A program made the translations under genes and the position numbers. Positions 10,283-51,628 of a stretch of 52,060 bases of DNA are shown one piece after another. The stretch spans positions 1 to 52,060 of the forward strand of contig JABMNV010000063.1 in assembly GCA_013203475.1 (NCBI GenBank). Reading direction: 5' to 3'. The stretch comes from Acidobacteriota bacterium (GTDB lineage Bacteria; Acidobacteriota; Vicinamibacteria; Vicinamibacterales; SCN-69-37). The first letter of the stretch is position 1. Every line of letters starts with the position of its first letter. The notes below the pieces were generated by a model that had not been told where the DNA came from, did not search any database, and saw only the letters and a program-made list of their open reading frames with translations.

Positions 10283-10545
10283 CGAGGCGTCCGCGTCTTT
10301 GGAACGGAGCCGCCGGTGAACCCACTCACGAAATCCTCCGGAAGCGGATCGAAAAAGCCCGACGGCACAGCGAAGCTGCCAGAGGCTCCTCCCACGGGAC
10401 GAGATTCGGTGCGCACAGCCTCGACCGCCACCAGTTCTGCAACCGGTCGATTGTGTTTGCAAATCACGACCCGCTCTCCTCCGGCAACCAACGCCAAGTG
10501 CTCGGAAAGCTTGGCCTTAACCTGGGCGATATTGACCTTTATCAT
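10279..10545 (-). CDS. Phd/YefM-family antitoxin
   Basis: An 88-residue antitoxin. The N-terminal 55 residues are a Phd/YefM DNA-binding domain ('MIKVNIAQVKAKLSEHLALV', 'GERVVICKHNRPVAELVAV'), and the rest is a Gly/Pro-rich tail that would wrap the VapC active site. The gene leads the operon and overlaps vapC by four bases. Antitoxins of this family bind operators in their own promoter, and a matching dyad covers the start codon here. Confidence 0.88.
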   Translation of the reverse strand: MIKVNIAQVKAKLSEHLALVAGGERVVICKHNRPVAELVAVEAVRTESRPVGGASGSFAVPSGFFDPLPEDFVSGFTGGSVPKTRTPR

Positions 10546-10581
10546 GACCTAAATTATGGTCATCATTATATGCATAGTCAA
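10544..10581 (-). promoter_or_regulatory. Toxin-antitoxin promoter with operator dyad over the start codon
   Basis: On the minus strand a -35 TTGACT (10576-10581) and a -10 CATAAT (10553-10558) are separated by 17 bases. A perfect inverted repeat ATGACC/GGTCAT (10544-10549 and 10558-10563, 8-base gap) overlaps both the -10 and the ATG at 10545. Transcription is predicted to start at or beside the ATG, so the mRNA would be leaderless. The dyad is the likely antitoxin binding site. Confidence 0.6.
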
Positions 10582-10631
10582 ATCGGAGTCAGTCCCACTC
10601 CTCCAGTTTCTACAATTCAGCGGTGGTCGGA

Positions 10632-11657
10632 CTAATCTTCTTTCAGCTCTTCGTACGACTCGTGGAGATGGGCCAACTTCCAGCCTTGATCGCTACGGAC
10701 GAAAATAGATGTACTCGCGTAGCGGAGTCGCTTCGGAGGTCCAGCCTCGGACCCAAATGTCATGACGCCCCTCCGGACGATGTAGGCGTTGTCGCGCGAC
10801 AGGACGTGGACATCGGCGTCTTCGATCTCGAAGTGGCTGGGTGTCCCGATTCCGTCGGGGCACATCGGTCTCAGGTCTTCGGCCGTGCGAAACGTATTGC
10901 CTCCACTGGCAACCACGGGCTCTCGGTCTCCGAAGAGTTCGAGCGCGGCCACGCACTGGTCGTGATCAACTTTGACGTCCATCGTCGCGGCCAGCCGCCT
11001 GATCGTCTCGGCGATTTCAGTTCGCTCGGCGTCTGTTAATGGAGCGCGGCTGGCGCCCGGCTGAGCTACCTCACTGGGCAACTCGCCCGCCAGCCGAAGA
11101 TCAAGACTGATGTCGGAACTCGTCGGCTCTCCCTGGTGTATTTCCACAGCCAGCACGTTGACGCCTGCTCTCAGGCCGTCCGCGGCAATCGAGAATTGTA
11201 CGGGGTCGTACTCCGATGCCTCAATTGCCAGCGTGGTGAAATCGGCCTCGCCGGCAGGCATATTCACCCGGAAGATTTCTGAGCCATTGAGATACACCAC
11301 GGCCCCGTCGTCGCAGGTCAACTCCCCGACGAGACCAGAGTAGAGAGAAGGTGTATCAACGGTGAAGGACGTGCGGAAGTACGTGGTCACGAAGTGGGAA
11401 TCCACGGGACCTGACTCGACGCTCGTCACTTCATCCCCGTCGCCGTACCCGAGCTCGGCCCGACCGGTGGCCCACGTCGAACTGTCGAAGTCAGCCGCGC
11501 GCCAGGCCGCGCCTTGATTCGATCCGTCGGCCAGAAACTCCCAGGTGCCCCCCCTTGGCACCAGCACCTGCTGAGGCAGCGCCGGTGTCGCCGGACCGCA
11601 ACTCGCCACGACAACGCTGGCGACGACGACCATCGCGATTCCTCTGGATTTCTTCAT
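10632..11657 (-). CDS. Lipoprotein with galactose-binding-like domain and SnoaL/NTF2-like C-terminus
   Basis: A 341-residue exported protein starting at ATG 11657 with a lipoprotein signal ending in 'VVASC' (cysteine near residue 21). Residues 30-200 look like a jelly-roll carbohydrate-binding-like domain ('GGTWEFLADGSNQG', 'STWATGRAELGYGDGDE', 'YFRTSFTV', 'GAVVYLNGSEIFRVNM', 'VNVLAVEIHQ'). The last 120 residues resemble a SnoaL/DUF4440-type domain ('IRRLAATMDVKVDHDQCVAALELFGDR'...'DQGWKLAHLHES'), often a ligand-binding or scaffold fold. Function unknown. A TACAAT hexamer lies 6 bases before the ATG (11664-11669). It is divergent from the Tat sugar isomerase-like gene. Confidence 0.8.
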   Translation of the reverse strand: MKKSRGIAMVVVASVVVASCGPATPALPQQVLVPRGGTWEFLADGSNQGAAWRAADFDSSTWATGRAELGYGDGDEVTSVESGPVDSHFVTTYFRTSFTVDTPSLYSGLVGELTCDDGAVVYLNGSEIFRVNMPAGEADFTTLAIEASEYDPVQFSIAADGLRAGVNVLAVEIHQGEPTSSDISLDLRLAGELPSEVAQPGASRAPLTDAERTEIAETIRRLAATMDVKVDHDQCVAALELFGDREPVVASGGNTFRTAEDLRPMCPDGIGTPSHFEIEDADVHVLSRDNAYIVRRGVMTFGSEAGPPKRLRYASTSIFVRSDQGWKLAHLHESYEELKED

Positions 11658-11663
11658 CAGCGG

Positions 11664-11669
11664 ATTGTA
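11664..11669 (-). promoter_or_regulatory. -10 element 6 bases from the lipoprotein start
   Basis: TACAAT on the minus strand with only 6 bases (CCGCTG) before ATG 11657; no good -35 is visible. It fits the leaderless pattern seen at other leading genes in the window. Confidence 0.4.
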
Positions 11670-11787
11670 GCGTGACTGCCGCAATGTTCCTCCGCGCCTA
11701 CTGTTTCGCTGTGTTACGAATCGGGTCTGACCGGCGCGGGCCGATGTCGATCGCTTCGCCGACCGTTGCGGAGTATCCTCTGTCCCT

Positions 11788-12780
11788 ATGGGATACACGA
11801 GACGCGAATTCACGAAATTGACACTGGCGGCCGCACCGGCGATCGGACTGATCAAGACCCCCTTCCCTGGTTCGTGGCTCGGCCAGGGCAGACCACAGTC
11901 GTTGATCAACGGCGTCCAGATCGGAGCGATTACCTACAGCTACCGCAGCATGCCTGACCAGAGCGCGGAGGCCACACTGCAGTACATCGTCGACTCCGGA
12001 GTCAGTGCGATTGAACTGATGGGCGATCCGGCCGAGAACTTTGCGGGCCGGCCGTCAGCGGGCCGTGGCGGCGGGCGGGGTGCGCGCGGCGCTCAACGGA
12101 CACCGGAACAGGTGGCCGAACAACGCGCGGCCCAACAGGCGGCAGCGGCTGAACTGAAGGCATGGCGAACGTCGGTCTCGATGGACAGGTTCAAGGCGCT
12201 ACGTAAGCTGTACAACGACGCGGGCGTATCGATCTACGCCGTCAAGTTCCTGAACCCCACCATGTCGGACGAAGAGTTTGAGTACGTGTTCAACGTCGCC
12301 GAAGCGCTCGGGTGCACGCACACGACCCTTGAATTGCCAACCGATGAGGCTCAACTCACGCGTGTGGGCAACTTCGCCATGAAGCGCAAGATCTACGCGG
12401 CGTATCACACGCACTTGCAGGGTTCGATGACGGCGTTCGATCGTGCGTTCGCGCGCTCGCCCGGGAACATGGCCAACGTGGATCTGGGTCACTACGTTGC
12501 TGCTGGAAACGTCGGTGGCACAACGCTCCAGTTCCTCGAGAAGCACCACGCGCGTGTCTCGAGTGTGCACATCAAGGACCGGCGATCAAAGGACAGCGGA
12601 GCTGACAACGTACCGTGGGGCACAGGCGATACACCGATTCGAGAGATCCTCCAGACGATGAAAAAGAACGCGTGGCGCTTTCCGGCGACAGTCGAGCTCG
12701 AGTATCGAATACCTGAAGACTCTGATGCCGTCAGAGAGACGAAGAAGTGCGTACAGTACTGCGCAGAGGCGTTGGTGTAG
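11788..12780 (+). CDS. Tat-exported sugar phosphate isomerase/epimerase-like TIM barrel
   Basis: A 330-residue protein with a Tat signal ('TRREFTKLTLAAAP') and an AP-endonuclease-2/xylose isomerase-like TIM barrel. Visible segments include 'GAITYSYRSMPD', 'SGVSAIELMGDP', 'GVSIYAVKFLNP', 'ALGCTHTTLELP', 'YAAYHTH', 'NMANVDLGHYVAAG', 'VSSVHIKDR' and 'VELEYRIPEDSD', where the His, Asp and Glu residues would bind a divalent metal. A Gly/Arg-rich insert sits near residues 84-97. Members are common in Acidobacteriota and Planctomycetota and are thought to act on exported sugar metabolites; the substrate is unknown. A TATCCT hexamer 8 bases before the ATG may be its -10. Confidence 0.88.
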   Translation: MGYTRREFTKLTLAAAPAIGLIKTPFPGSWLGQGRPQSLINGVQIGAITYSYRSMPDQSAEATLQYIVDSGVSAIELMGDPAENFAGRPSAGRGGGRGARGAQRTPEQVAEQRAAQQAAAAELKAWRTSVSMDRFKALRKLYNDAGVSIYAVKFLNPTMSDEEFEYVFNVAEALGCTHTTLELPTDEAQLTRVGNFAMKRKIYAAYHTHLQGSMTAFDRAFARSPGNMANVDLGHYVAAGNVGGTTLQFLEKHHARVSSVHIKDRRSKDSGADNVPWGTGDTPIREILQTMKKNAWRFPATVELEYRIPEDSDAVRETKKCVQYCAEALV

Positions 12781-15406: not shown

Positions 15407-15425
15407 TGTGTGAGTATACGTGTAT
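15407..15425. promoter_or_regulatory. 19-base divergent promoter region with central GTATAC palindrome
   Basis: The whole gap between the permease GTG (15406, minus) and the adaptor ATG (15426, plus) is 19 bases. The palindrome GTATAC (15414-15419) gives TATACT on the minus strand, 6 bases from the GTG, and TATACG on the plus strand, 5 bases from the ATG. Both could be -10 elements sharing one core. No clear -35 was found. Confidence 0.4.
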
Positions 15426-16685: not shown

Positions 16686-16740
16686 ACGAAGTCGTTCCGG
16701 GTCCTCCGCGCCCGCATTGGTCGGTATACTGGCCGTGTAT

Positions 16741-29046: not shown

Positions 29047-29791
29047 TCGCCATCGTCACCCGGACCGTGGCCCGAATTTCGATGTCGGACGGGGCAATCG
29101 GCGTCGAAACCTGGGCATCGCCGGCGCGCGACATCATCATTGGCTGCTCGAACTTCATGACGCCGGCGTCCGCACCGGCCTCCTCGATTCGAAGCACCAT
29201 CCCAACCTCACGACCCGCGCCCAGGGCCATCACCGTCGCGCGTGCCGTGGCGTCTTCAACCGCCTGTCGCAGGGCCCGACGCTCCACGCCGACCCGGTCT
29301 TTCAGATCAAAACGCACACTCCCAATGGACGACATCGAGGACGTCGGCAGCGAGAGACCTCCAACTGCGTCGAGCACATCCGCCACGCGTCCAATGTCGT
29401 CCACCCGCGCCTGAATCTGGTTCGACACGACAAAACCCTTCATGCGCTGCCGGCCGTTCGCGTAGTCATACTCGGGACGCAACGAAAACCCCACCGTTTG
29501 GATGGCGTCGGCGGGCAACCCCGCCCCGGCCAACGCCGCCAGCACTGACGTCATCGCCACCGCGCCCAGACGACGGGCCTCTGGACCTCGGGTATCGCGA
29601 GTGTCGACCGAGACCGTGACCCACGCCTGGTCGGGCGCAGTCTTAATCGTGCTTTCCCCGGTGGTCACCACCACGGGCGATGTAAAGTTCTGAGCGGTGG
29701 CCTGGGTTTCGGCCCTGGTCACGGATGGTCGAGCAACGATCGCGAGCAAGCACACGGCACACGCGGCGGCAGATGTTCGGCTCAAGGTCAT
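29039..29791 (-). CDS. SIMPL-domain (DUF541) periplasmic protein
   Basis: A 250-residue exported protein with a Sec signal ('SAAACAVCLLAIVARPSVTRA') and a SIMPL/DUF541 domain: 'VVTTGESTIKTAPDQAWVTVSVDTR', 'GLPADAIQTVGFSLRPEYDY', 'GFVVSNQIQARVDD', 'ALRQAVEDATARATVMA' and a closing 'IEIRATVRVTMAIK'-like strand. The E. coli relative YggE protects against oxidative stress; the biochemical function is not established. A TATAAA hexamer lies 7 bases before ATG 29791, and AAAGGAG could be its ribosome site. Confidence 0.9.
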   Translation of the reverse strand: MTLSRTSAAACAVCLLAIVARPSVTRAETQATAQNFTSPVVVTTGESTIKTAPDQAWVTVSVDTRDTRGPEARRLGAVAMTSVLAALAGAGLPADAIQTVGFSLRPEYDYANGRQRMKGFVVSNQIQARVDDIGRVADVLDAVGGLSLPTSSMSSIGSVRFDLKDRVGVERRALRQAVEDATARATVMALGAGREVGMVLRIEEAGADAGVMKFEQPMMMSRAGDAQVSTPIAPSDIEIRATVRVTMAIK

Positions 29792-29809
29792 GGACTCCTT
29801 TATACACTC
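29792..29809. promoter_or_regulatory. 18-base divergent gap with a shared TATA core
   Basis: Only 18 bases separate the SIMPL ATG (minus) from the homoserine dehydrogenase ATG (plus). The centre reads TTTATA/TATAAA. On the minus strand TATAAA is 7 bases from the ATG; on the plus strand TTTATA is 5 bases from the ATG. No -35 was identified. Confidence 0.35.
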
Positions 29810-32103: not shown

Positions 32104-32115
32104 TACGATCCCGCC

Positions 32116-32547
32116 ATGGAAGTTGCCGAGCTCCGTCGCCAGATTGTCCGGGAAATTGAACGCGCGCGTGGTGAGGTTGCTCAGCGCCGCAAGAACGCCG
32201 ACTCGGCTCAGGAGGCCTACGCCAAGTTCATCGTCGAGGTGGCCGGGCCCGTGGTCCTGCAGGCGGTCAACATCCTCAGATCAGAAGGGGTGCAACTGCA
32301 GGCGGAAACACCAGCCGGTATCGCACGGATTGGCTCGGACAAGTCTGCCGATGACTTTGTCGAATTCGTACTCGACACGAGTGTGCGCCCGCCGCGAGTG
32401 CTGGGGCGATCGAGCGTGGCCATCAGTCGCCACAACGTGGTGGTCGACGAGCAGCCGATCGCTCCGGGTACCGCCATTGCCGAGATTCAGGAGACGGATT
32501 TGCTGGCGTTCCTCGTGCCGGCCATTGGCCGCCTCGTCGCCAGGTGA
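32116..32547 (+). CDS. Conserved protein of unknown function
   Basis: A 143-residue soluble protein I cannot assign. The first 45 residues form an Arg/Glu-rich helix ('LRRQIVREIERARGEVAQRRKNAD'), followed by 'FIVEVAGPVVLQAVNILRSEG' and a beta-rich end. No signal peptide or membrane helix. A TACGAT hexamer (32104-32109) is exactly 6 bases before the ATG. The last 61 bases overlap the convergent ubiE gene. Confidence 0.7.
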   Translation: MEVAELRRQIVREIERARGEVAQRRKNADSAQEAYAKFIVEVAGPVVLQAVNILRSEGVQLQAETPAGIARIGSDKSADDFVEFVLDTSVRPPRVLGRSSVAISRHNVVVDEQPIAPGTAIAEIQETDLLAFLVPAIGRLVAR

Positions 32548-34437: not shown

Positions 34438-34459
34438 TGTCGTCGATAATAGGGAGGCC
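34438..34459. promoter_or_regulatory. 22-base divergent gap with a shared ATAATA core
   Basis: The gap between the FAD oxidoreductase (minus) and DtxR (plus) starts is 22 bases. ATAATA at 34446-34451 gives TATTAT on the minus strand (8 bases from the ATG) and GATAAT on the plus strand (9 bases from the ATG). The plus side also has AGGGAGG as a ribosome site. Confidence 0.4.
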
Positions 34460-35137
34460 ATGCTTCCGTCACAGACGGTCGAGAACTATCTCAAGACCAT
34501 TCACCTCGCGCACGCGGCGCAAACTGATCGCGAACTGGTTCCTATGGGCCAGCTCTCCTCAGCACTGGGCGTCGTCCCAGGCACCGCCACCACGATGGTG
34601 AAAGCCCTGGCCGAATCGGGCCTGGTGCACTACGAACCCTACATGGGCGTTCGCCTGACGGACGCTGGTGAGAAGCTCGCGTCCCTCGTGCTGCGCCGGC
34701 ATCGACTGATCGAACTGTTCCTGGTCAAAGTGCTTGGCATGAGTTGGGCGGAGGTGCACGACGAGGCCGAGCATCTGGAACACGCCGTGTCTGAGCGATT
34801 GATCGATCGCATCGACGAGATGCTGGGCCGACCTGAGGTGGATCCCCATGGCGACCCGATTCCCACCGCTGAGGGACTCATCCCGAACACCGAGAAGGCC
34901 CACGTCGATTTGCTGAACGCGCCCGTGGACACGAAGTTGGTGATCACACGTGTGCTGGACCAGGACCCCGAGTTCCTGAGGTTCATTGAACAACGTGATT
35001 TGATGCCCGGCAGCTCGGTCGTCATTGAGGCCAGAGACGCCGTCGCTGACGCAGTCAGGCTACGGGCCGAAGAAGGCAAGGGCACCACCATCGGCACCCG
35101 CGCCGCCTCAAAGGTTCTGGTCCGCCTCGCACGATAG
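34460..35137 (+). CDS. DtxR/MntR-family metal-dependent regulator with SH3-like domain
   Basis: A 225-residue regulator: winged helix ('LPSQTVENYLKTIHLAHA', 'LSSALGVVPGTATTMVKALAESGLVHYEP' in parts), dimerisation and metal-binding domain ('RRHRLIELFLVKVLGMSWAEVHDEAEHLEHAVSE' in parts, with conserved His and Glu residues) and a C-terminal FeoA/SH3-like domain from about residue 150. DtxR-type proteins repress iron or manganese uptake genes when metal is plentiful. It starts at ATG 34460 behind AGGGAGG. Placed 87 bases before the membrane-fused DtxR-FeoA gene and feoB, it is the likely soluble regulator of that iron-uptake block. Confidence 0.92.
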   Translation: MLPSQTVENYLKTIHLAHAAQTDRELVPMGQLSSALGVVPGTATTMVKALAESGLVHYEPYMGVRLTDAGEKLASLVLRRHRLIELFLVKVLGMSWAEVHDEAEHLEHAVSERLIDRIDEMLGRPEVDPHGDPIPTAEGLIPNTEKAHVDLLNAPVDTKLVITRVLDQDPEFLRFIEQRDLMPGSSVVIEARDAVADAVRLRAEEGKGTTIGTRAASKVLVRLAR

Positions 35138-35183: not shown

Positions 35184-35213
35184 TTGATTTTGAATAGTCA
35201 AAACTTATATTAT
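35184..35213 (+). promoter_or_regulatory. Promoter with a 16-bp dyad upstream of the DtxR-FeoA fusion gene
   Basis: -35 TTGATT (35184-35189) and -10 TATTAT (35208-35213) are 18 bases apart. A perfect inverted repeat TTTTGA-ATAG-TCAAAA (35188-35203) lies between and overlaps the -35. Predicted transcription begins about 5 bases before the ATG at 35225, so the leader would be nearly absent. The dyad is a candidate operator for the DtxR-type regulators here. Confidence 0.55.
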
Positions 35214-39150: not shown

Positions 39151-39178
39151 AGTCTACGGGCTGCCGAGACGATGTCAA
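39151..39178 (-). promoter_or_regulatory. Promoter of the DsrE-like gene
   Basis: On the minus strand a perfect -35 TTGACA (39173-39178) and a -10 TAGACT (39151-39156) are 16 bases apart. Only 10 bases separate the -10 from ATG 39140, so the leader would be about 3 bases, though AAGGA is present. Confidence 0.6.
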
Positions 39179-46521: not shown

Positions 46522-46527
46522 TACAAT
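46522..46527 (+). promoter_or_regulatory. -10 element before the 73-residue gene
   Basis: TACAAT lies 9 bases before ATG 46537. An inverted repeat GAGTC/GACTC sits just upstream (46501-46505 and 46514-46518). Confidence 0.4.
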
Positions 46528-46536
46528 GACGACCTC

Positions 46537-46758
46537 ATGCTCAAAGGCACACGTACCGCTGTCGTCCACCGCATTCAACCCATGTCAATCCACGGGCAGA
46601 TTTCTCTCGATGTGTTCTGGACTGACCCCGAGGACCCCGAAGGTGAGATTCGGCATGCACGCGTGGGCAACGAAGCGACCCCCCTCCACATGGCAGCGGG
46701 CGACACGGTCACGCTACACTACCTGATGGGCATGGTCACCGAGATTACGAAAACCTAG
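46537..46758 (+). CDS. Small conserved protein of unknown function
   Basis: A 73-residue acidic, soluble protein ('SIHGQISLDVFWTDPEDPEGEIRHARVG', 'AAGDTVTLHYLMGMVTEITK' in parts) that I do not recognise. It has its own start region, converges with the MFS gene (stop 13 bases away) and is divergent from the S41 peptidase gene. The codon use fits its neighbours, so I treat it as real. Confidence 0.6.
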   Translation: MLKGTRTAVVHRIQPMSIHGQISLDVFWTDPEDPEGEIRHARVGNEATPLHMAAGDTVTLHYLMGMVTEITKT

Positions 46759-49563: not shown

Positions 49564-51545
49564 CGCGTCCCCACCACGTTCCCGTGACCGTCAACCGTGA
49601 ACCGCCACCCGGGTGACACCACCACTGTGGCTTCGCCGCCGGCAATGACTGCGGGCCCCAACCCAGAGGCCCCTGACGTCAGATCATCCCAGCGGAAAAA
49701 CGAAATCCGCACGTTCTTGCCGCCCAGGCGACCCGGGCGCACCGCGGTCGGCGTTGCTTTGGTCGCCCGGCGGACCCTTTTTATCGCCGGCAAGGATGGT
49801 TTGTCGGTGACGCCAGCCGCGGACACACGAACGTTCACCACCTCAGTCGGTCGAGCGGAATTCGAGTAGCCGTACGTTTTGCCGTGCTGCTGATCAAACG
49901 CCTCGCGGTAGTCTGCCTCAAGGGGCAACGTGATTTCGAACGACTGTCCGATGTACCGCACGTCCAGTGAACGCGTGATGACTTGCCGCCCCGGAGGAAA
50001 CCCCTCCATCTCCAGCTCGGTTCGCGCCGTCTCGACCAGCGGCGCGCACGCGGCCTCGAGGTCCTTCATCGTCAGGCTCGTGCTCGGTTTGAGCACGCTG
50101 GCTGAATAGTCTTTCGTCACGTCGGCGACGAGCATGCCAAACGCTGACAACACTCCGGCGTGCCGGGGGACGATGACGGTCGAGATTTGAAGTTGTTCGG
50201 CGATCTCGCAGGCATGCATGCCTCCCGCGCCGCCGAACGCCAGGAGTGCGAAATCTCGCGGGTCGTGGCCTCGCTCCACTGAGACGACGCGAATCGCGCG
50301 TTCCATGTTGGCGTTCGCCACTCGGATGATGCCCTCAGCCAGTTCTGGCACCGACAGGCCAACGTCGTTGGCCAGCGCCTCGGCCACCCGCTGTGTGCGT
50401 TCACCATCGATCGCCATTCGTCCACCGAGAAAATAGTCCGGATCGAGTCGGCCGAGCAGCAGGTTCGCGTCAGTGACGGTCAACTCATTGCCGACGCCGT
50501 AGCACACCGGGCCCGGGCTGGCCCCGGCGCTTCGCGGACCGACGCGCAGGGCTCCTCCGGTATCCAAATAGGCGATAGACCCTCCACCGGCACCGACCGT
50601 GTGAATGTCGATGACCGGAAGCCTCACCGGAAAGTCTCCGATCTTCGAATCCGTGGTCGTTCCGATTTCGTCGTCAATCAGGCTGACGTCGGTTGAGGTT
50701 CCGCCCATATCAAAGGAGATGACTCTCGGAAACCCGGCCGCATGGGCGACGGAACTGGCACCCACGACACCAGCGGCCGGGCCGGACAGCACGGTACGAA
50801 CGGCCTGAGCCCGGGCGGCTGACGCTGAAATGCAGCCCCCGTTCGACTGCATGATCGAGAGGCGAGAAGCCGGGGGTCCGGGGGTCCTGAGGGCCTGCTC
50901 CAGTTTTGCAAGATAGCGATCCATCAGCGGCGTGACGTAGGCGTTGACGACCGTCGTGCTCCAGCGTTCGAACTCTCGATACTCCGGCAACACCTCACTC
51001 GACGTGCAGACCGACAGACCGGATTTGCGGAGGATCGCGGCCACCTGCTGTTCGTGCGCCGGGTTGGCATATGAGTGCAAGAGGCACACGGCCACCATCG
51101 TGGCACCGCGCACGTGAATCAGACGGGCAATTTGGTTGACGTCGTCCTCGTTGACGTTCTGCAAGATGGCGCCTGACGCGTCGAGGCGTTCGTCGACGCC
51201 GAATGTCAGCTCAGCTTCCACGAGAGGCGGTCGGGGCTCAACAAAGACGTTGTAGAGCTCGGGCCGTGTCTGGCGACCGATCTTCAGCACGTCCTCGAAG
51301 CCCCGCGTCGCGACCAGGGCCACCTTGGCACCTGTGCGTTCCAATACCGCATTCGTGGCCACCGTCGAGCCGTGGACCACGTCGAGGGGGGCGTCGTCTC
51401 CGGTCAGGTGCCGGATGCCCTCCAGGATCGCACGCGCCGGGTCGTCGGGCGTAGAGCGCTGTTTATGGACGACGAGACCGTGGGGCCCCAAGTGGACGAA
51501 GTCGGTGAACGTGCCACCGGTGTCGATGCCGAGACGGGAATGCAC
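49560..51545 (-). CDS. Hydantoinase A/oxoprolinase family subunit
   Basis: A 661-residue HyuA from GTG 51545: 'LGIDTGGTFTDFVHLG' (ATP-binding), 'VVHGSTVATNAVLERTGAKVALVATRGFEDVLKIGRQTRP' in parts, 'SGPAAGVVGASSVA', 'VISFDMGGTSTDVSLID', 'IDIHTVGAGGGSIAY' and 'FALLAFGGAGGMHACEIAEQL'. Together with HyuB it would open a cyclic amide using ATP. TATCAT is exactly 6 bases before the GTG. Substrate is not predictable from sequence. Confidence 0.94.
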   Translation of the reverse strand: MHSRLGIDTGGTFTDFVHLGPHGLVVHKQRSTPDDPARAILEGIRHLTGDDAPLDVVHGSTVATNAVLERTGAKVALVATRGFEDVLKIGRQTRPELYNVFVEPRPPLVEAELTFGVDERLDASGAILQNVNEDDVNQIARLIHVRGATMVAVCLLHSYANPAHEQQVAAILRKSGLSVCTSSEVLPEYREFERWSTTVVNAYVTPLMDRYLAKLEQALRTPGPPASRLSIMQSNGGCISASAARAQAVRTVLSGPAAGVVGASSVAHAAGFPRVISFDMGGTSTDVSLIDDEIGTTTDSKIGDFPVRLPVIDIHTVGAGGGSIAYLDTGGALRVGPRSAGASPGPVCYGVGNELTVTDANLLLGRLDPDYFLGGRMAIDGERTQRVAEALANDVGLSVPELAEGIIRVANANMERAIRVVSVERGHDPRDFALLAFGGAGGMHACEIAEQLQISTVIVPRHAGVLSAFGMLVADVTKDYSASVLKPSTSLTMKDLEAACAPLVETARTELEMEGFPPGRQVITRSLDVRYIGQSFEITLPLEADYREAFDQQHGKTYGYSNSARPTEVVNVRVSAAGVTDKPSLPAIKRVRRATKATPTAVRPGRLGGKNVRISFFRWDDLTSGASGLGPAVIAGGEATVVVSPGWRFTVDGHGNVVGTR

Positions 51546-51551
51546 GGATAG

Positions 51552-51557
51552 ATGATA
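51552..51557 (-). promoter_or_regulatory. -10 element of the hyuA-hyuB-MFS operon
   Basis: TATCAT on the minus strand, 6 bases (CTATCC) from GTG 51545, so the mRNA would be leaderless. Heptamer AGCAC repeats begin 3 bases upstream and occupy the -35 region. Confidence 0.45.
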
Positions 51558-51560
51558 CGG

Positions 51561-51628
51561 GGTGCTGGGTGCTGGGCGCTGGGCGAAGCACCGCCGTAGG
51601 CTTGGCGGAGGCGGGTGCTGCGCTACGG
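51561..51628. repeat. Heptamer AGCAC array plus adjacent dyads
   Basis: On the minus strand 51583-51561 reads CCAGCGC, CCAGCAC, CCAGCAC, C. Next to it are inverted repeats CCGCC/GGCGG (51591-51595, 51604-51608) and CCGTAG/CTACGG (51594-51599, 51623-51628). These fill most of the gap between hyuA and the next gene. Confidence 0.6.

Follow-up and report, generated by a model that had tools for sequence, protein, structure and literature searches.

In a genus of the Vicinamibacterales, an order that is common in soil and freshwater and has few cultured members, the hexamer TANNNT recurs a few bases before the start codons of leading genes. In all likelihood it is the -10 element of housekeeping sigma-70-type promoters that abut the start codon, and transcription from it would be leaderless or near-leaderless. 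About one in five transcript-leading genes has such a putative -10 box against the start codon, which predicts an mRNA whose 5' end lies on the codon or only a few bases away. An earlier note on this DNA had described the recurrent element and taken it as a sign of leaderless mRNAs; it was right on the pattern and very probably right on the meaning too. Such a frequency would allow better gene-start calls in Vicinamibacterales genomes, and the genes offer a ready promoter set for testing how precisely a leaderless mRNA needs to have its AUG or GUG at the 5' terminus.

Genomes, gene starts and chance baseline

The window, meaning the whole stretch of 52,060 nucleotides that was analysed, is contig C19 of a metagenome-assembled genome (MAG) of 3.58 Mb and ~63% G+C. 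One window protein has close relatives, 73-83% identical, in MAGs labelled Acidobacteria or Vicinamibacterales. The exception is L007 (VFZF01000013.1), which carries the public label Acidimicrobiia, yet groups with Vicinamibacterales MAGs and was placed in the genus of the window. The comparison set consisted of six congeneric genomes (G001-G006) and other genomes of the family and order; the genus pool comprised G000, G003 and G004. For the genome test we sampled 553 kb of the window's genome as stretches, the window included, with 281 non-internal genes.

Gene starts were assigned by a home-made, motif-blind caller that used only coding score and start-codon type, and the motif was therefore unable to bias the choice of start. 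Single starts called in this way may be wrong, while the population result is robust. Spacing was counted as the bases between the TANNNT hexamer and the start codon, and the chance baseline was obtained by dinucleotide shuffles of the upstream sequence (2000 for the window). Scans of the window for Rfam families and for tRNAs gave no matches, nor did the genome to which the window belongs yield a 16S gene. In the congener G005, the anti-Shine-Dalgarno (anti-SD) end of the 16S rRNA is intact (GGATCACCTCCTTT); since TANNNT genes are present as well, both modes of starting translation coexist.

Hexamers upstream of individual starts

The earlier note had listed 13 starts, each with a TANNNT-like hexamer at a given distance. 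Reading the upstream sequence of all 13, we found a strict TANNNT at that distance in 10 (11657, 15406, 32116, 51545, 34437, 11788, 46537, 39140, 16741 and 35225). The other three do not fit strictly: 10545 has CATAAT at 7 bases, 29791 has TATAAA at 7 and 34460 has GATAAT at 9. The sites, together with one further site before 15426, are as follows.

11664-11669, minus strand: TACAAT, 6 bases before ATG 11657 of a secreted protein with a SnoaL-like domain (Pfam)
15413-15418, minus strand: TATACT, 6 bases before GTG 15406 of a MacB/FtsX permease (Pfam)
15415-15420, plus strand: TATACG, not a strict TANNNT, 5 bases before ATG 15426 of a HlyD-type membrane fusion protein (Pfam)
32104-32109, plus strand: TACGAT, 6 bases before ATG 32116 of a 143-residue protein
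51552-51557, minus strand: TATCAT, 6 bases before GTG 51545 of a hydantoinase A (Pfam)
11774-11779, plus strand: TATCCT, 8 bases before ATG 11788 of a protein weakly similar to xylose isomerase-like TIM barrels
34446-34451, minus strand: TATTAT, 8 bases before ATG 34437 of a FAD-dependent oxidoreductase (Pfam)
34445-34450, plus strand: GATAAT, not a strict TANNNT, 9 bases before ATG 34460 of an iron-dependent repressor family protein (Pfam)
29799-29804, minus strand: TATAAA (TANNNA), not a strict TANNNT, 7 bases before ATG 29791 of a SIMPL-domain protein
46522-46527, plus strand: TACAAT, 9 bases before ATG 46537 of a 73-residue protein
39151-39156, minus strand: TAGACT, 10 bases before ATG 39140
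16725-16730, plus strand: TATACT, 10 bases before ATG 16741, a start that is uncertain
35208-35213, plus strand: TATTAT, 11 bases before ATG 35225 of a protein with FeoA and iron-dependent repressor C-terminal domains (Pfam)
10551-10556, minus strand: TAATTT, 5 bases before ATG 10545 of a Phd/YefM antitoxin family protein (Pfam)

The motif-blind caller preferred other starts at three of these genes (11633 for 11657, 16780 for 16741 and 34406 for the reading frame of 34460) and called no gene at 32116. Single sites, for example those of 39140, 16741 and 10545, may be due to chance.

Two stretches near these sites have features of their own. The region 10545-10585, before the Phd/YefM-type antitoxin gene, is A+T-rich and partly palindromic, contains a second TATAAT and is perhaps the operator of that gene. 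Just upstream of the putative promoter of 51545, at ~51558-51628, lies a short C+A-rich repeat (CCCAGCACCCAGCACC...) that matches several other places in congener genomes at 75-93% identity, a dispersed intergenic repeat.

Enrichment next to the starts of leading genes

Of the 29 non-internal genes in the window, 8 are preceded by a TANNNT at 5-11 bases, against a shuffled mean of 1.31, and none of the 2000 shuffles reached 8. Among operon-internal genes the fraction is 1/20; the earlier note had tied the element to leading genes. The 281 non-internal genes of the 553 kb sample have 52 TANNNT hexamers at distances 5-10, compared with 10.7 after shuffling. A peak at fixed short spacing was what the earlier note had expected of a histogram set against shuffled upstream sequence, and the sample has it at 6-9: 17, 8, 9 and 11 matches at spacings 6, 7, 8 and 9, respectively, against ~2 per position further upstream. 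The peak is also present without the window; for leading genes only, at distances 4-12, we counted 33 matches versus 10.0 in shuffles (z 7.3).

Among patterns with three of six letters fixed, including the first and the last, TA...T ranked top with a score of 10.8, the next reaching 4.8. ATG or GTG triplets that are not starts have TANNNT upstream in only 1.1% of cases. A stop-codon artefact was rejected because TA[CT]NNT alone peaks at the identical place, as was a general A+T enrichment, other A/T patterns being far less enriched than TA...T.

Composition and spacing of the putative -10 element

When the hexamers were aligned, the free positions had A at 4 and 5, and two bases ahead of the hexamer stood a G, as is typical of sigma-70-type -10 elements. 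No clear -35 element was found at 16-18 bases. A pyrimidine-purine step, as is usual at transcription starts, falls exactly on the start codon in 79% of the genes with spacing 6 and 82% of those with spacing 7, compared with a background of 53%. At spacing 8-9 no start-site step was found at any position checked, including those of leaders of 0-3 bases.

Where transcription starts, which sigma factor acts and how ribosomes initiate are inferences from these features. At spacing 6-7, the initial letter of the codon would also be the first nucleotide transcribed by RNA polymerase. The resulting mRNA would be truly leaderless, and ribosomes would initiate at its 5'-terminal AUG or GUG, with no Shine-Dalgarno (SD) pairing involved. 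At spacing 8-9, transcription would begin either on the codon or 1-3 bases ahead of it. Operon-internal genes retain SD sites or coupled starts. For spacings of 8-11 the leaderless reading is less certain.

Two candidate explanations of the wider spacing were rejected. A distinct promoter type for spacing 8-9 is at odds with a -10 composition that equals that of spacing 6-7, and a fixed 3-base leader at spacing 9 has no start-site signature.

The spacing between the -10 and the start is unusually variable in the genus, with 56 genes at 8-9 and 72 at 6-7; in the Actinobacteria pool the numbers are 0 and 31, all of its sites having spacing 6-7. Spacing 8-9 is also rarer in G015, Deinococcus and Thermus than in the genus, which is not significant for any of them singly (p 0.08-0.14); with the three pooled with Actinobacteria, the difference from the genus has p 8e-6. 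Start codons vary with spacing too. In G000, G003 and G004, spacing 6 has 26 GTG and 31 ATG (26/57 GTG), and spacings 7-10 have 18 GTG and 90 ATG (18/108; p 1.6e-4), an effect that was found and tested on identical data; two genomes of the three have it, and in G003 alone it is not significant.

These observations raise the possibility, which we regard as somewhat doubtful, that spacing 8-9 is a distinct near-leaderless class, in which transcription would start ~7 bases after the hexamer, leaders of 1-3 bases would be tolerated and AUG would be preferred. The equal -10 composition is consistent with such a class, as are the concentration of GTG at spacing 6, the tendency of spacing classes 6 and 8-9 to be inherited among orthologs, and the lack of the wider spacing in the 31 genes of the Actinobacteria pool, where an exact 5'-terminal RTG is required (PMC4633059). 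However, the class predicts a start-site step 1-3 bases before the codon, which is not seen, and the GTG effect has the limits given above. Alternatively, transcription may begin on the A of AUG itself, at 9-10 bases from the hexamer, in which case these genes would be leaderless too.

Leading genes and Shine-Dalgarno avoidance

In three genomes of the genus, TANNNT genes make up 19-24% of non-internal genes versus 7-8% of internal ones. An SD core precedes 10% of TANNNT genes, versus 32% (p 2e-11). Leaderless transcription, the meaning that the earlier note had given to the element, is supported by this SD avoidance, and also by a base composition typical of a -10, a start-site step on the codon at spacing 6-7, the enrichment at leading genes and the conservation in orthologs described below.

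The same hexamers could in principle serve translation and not transcription, as an A+T-rich unstructured stretch or a binding site for ribosomal protein S1 before the start codon. Non-SD starts of other phyla do tend to be A+T-rich upstream, perhaps owing to S1 binding (PMC5397173). Here, however, only TA...T at fixed positions is strongly enriched, and three of its traits are those of a promoter: a -10-like composition, a start-site step where the spacing is 6-7, and a bias towards leading genes; we therefore consider a translation signal very unlikely.

Conservation in orthologs

Among orthologs with an aligned start codon, a query with TANNNT at 5-10 bases has a partner that also carries it in 34 of 44 pairs, and a query that lacks it has a partner with it in 7 of 107; the pairs are not independent, the 44 coming from fewer genes. 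Control distances of 20-55, taken together, retained the pattern in 12 of 42 pairs (p 1e-5 versus 34/44), and control distances near the start had some conservation too; no single control window is large enough to be ranked. The hexamer letters changed in 23 of the 34 conserved pairs while the TANNNT pattern was retained.

The window genes illustrate this range. For 15406, four congeners have the identical hexamer TATACT, spacing 6 and GTG, and TATAAG stands at the equivalent place upstream of 15426 in three of four. At 51545, five congeners have TAATAT or TAGAAT with spacing 6 and GTG amid diverged flanks, and at 32116 five keep TACGAT or TACGCT at spacing 7-8. Four congeners have TACAAT or TAGAAT at spacing 9 before 11788. 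Three keep CGATAAT at 34460, three keep TATAAA or TATCGA at 29791, and the region of 35225, whose start is uncertain, is alike in three. No conservation at the aligned start was found for the TATTAT of 34437 in the orthologs examined, no ortholog with an aligned start for 11657 among the congeners searched, and no ortholog for 39140 in a search of the congeners.

Switching between a -10 at the start and an SD-like upstream site was observed within the genus at 11774-11788 and 46522-46537, with the orthologs L184, L231 and L236-L239. In G005, AAAGGAG, an SD-like site, replaces the -10 of the 11788 ortholog. The -10 of 46537 is present only in the window, being missing upstream of 87-96% identical orthologs in five congeners.

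Occurrence in other lineages

The TANNNT peak has a z of 13.4 in G003 and 14.8 in G004, both of the same genus, and of 12.4 in G015, which belongs to another family of the same order. Outside the phylum, we obtained 12.6 for the Actinobacteria pool, 10.1 for Deinococcus deserti plasmid 1 and 11.9 for Thermus thermophilus pTT27, all from groups with known leaderless genes (PMC3160421, PMC4633059, PMC12340547). No TANNNT excess was found in pools of Firmicutes, Proteobacteria, Chloroflexi and delta-type genomes. TANNNT is short, the earlier note's starts and distances were freely chosen, 3 of its 13 sites fail a strict fit and two of its starts are doubtful; chance is nonetheless refuted for the population of sites, and improbable in the extreme as an explanation of the pattern, by the motif-blind starts, the dinucleotide shuffles, the genome without the window, the TA[CT]NNT-only control, the non-start RTG triplets and the negative phyla.

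The leaderless phenomenon itself is already described, Acidobacteria included, and the detail for Vicinamibacterales is an extension. Zheng et al. (2011) found TA-led genes in all three Acidobacteria they covered, at 9.7-19.4% of genes, under the rule that in G+C-rich genomes the first T of TANNNT lies ~12 bases ahead of the start, the same placement as here (PMC3160421). In contrast to those three genomes, the present case concerns a genus of Vicinamibacterales, in which spacing extends to 8-9 and orthologs add evidence. Mycobacterial leaderless transcripts are alike in having the -10 against the codon, in using both ATG and GTG and in preferring a cytosine at -1; there an RTG at +1 is necessary (Shell et al. 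2015), whereas here spacings of 8-9 are frequent and spacing 6 is where GTG clusters (PMC4633059). The -10 motifs adjacent to open reading frames in Deinococcus-Thermus, a different phylum, likewise place the -10 box beside the frame with no need of a -35 (PMC12340547); the D. deserti and T. thermophilus samples are more concentrated at spacing 6, a difference that is not significant for either alone.

Divergent genes that may share one -10 element

In G000, G003, G004 and G015, 5 of 20 divergent spacers of 8-30 bases have strict -10 hexamers on both strands, compared with ~0.23 expected.

L271:12528, both strands, in G003
L271:19728, both strands, in G003
L163:6890, both strands, in G004
L168:7192, both strands, in G004
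L133:15444, both strands, in G015

The start codons of these strict cases lie ~23-24 bases apart, and both mRNAs would therefore be leaderless; the spacers would be symmetric bidirectional promoters feeding two leaderless genes. Symmetric bidirectional promoters of E. coli likewise have overlapping -10 elements on the two strands, with common distances of 18, 10 or 23 bp between the start sites (PMC12825309), whereas here it is the start codons themselves that are ~23-24 bases apart.

None of the five spacers is in the window, where three pairs (15406/15426, 29791/29810 and 34437/34460) look similar but fail the strict test. Between the permease and fusion protein genes (15407-15425), the plus-strand TATACG at 15415-15420 overlaps the minus-strand -10 at 15413-15418; taken with the strict cases, starts are ~19-24 bases apart. 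The TATAAA at 29799-29804 overlaps a plus-strand TACACT at 29803-29808, upstream of ATG 29810. The sites of 34437 (minus) and 34460 (plus) are one stretch of a few bases read on both strands, and are thus not independent.

A broader proposal combines two selected classes, leaderless AUG or GUG mRNAs at 6-7 and, at 8-9, mRNAs with 1-3-base leaders that favour AUG, with symmetric -10s that fire two leaderless genes; we put it forward tentatively, as rather unlikely in its entirety. If its two classes were real, short leaders, of which mycobacteria seem to make poorer use, would be acceptable to these ribosomes. The potential novelties are modest: the conserved 8-9 class absent from the Actinobacteria pool, the concentration of GTG at spacing 6 and the divergent pairs that would share a symmetric -10. 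In two divergent spacers of 11 bases, L090:9263 (G000) and L271:9936 (G003), the -10 of one gene overlaps the start codon of the other.
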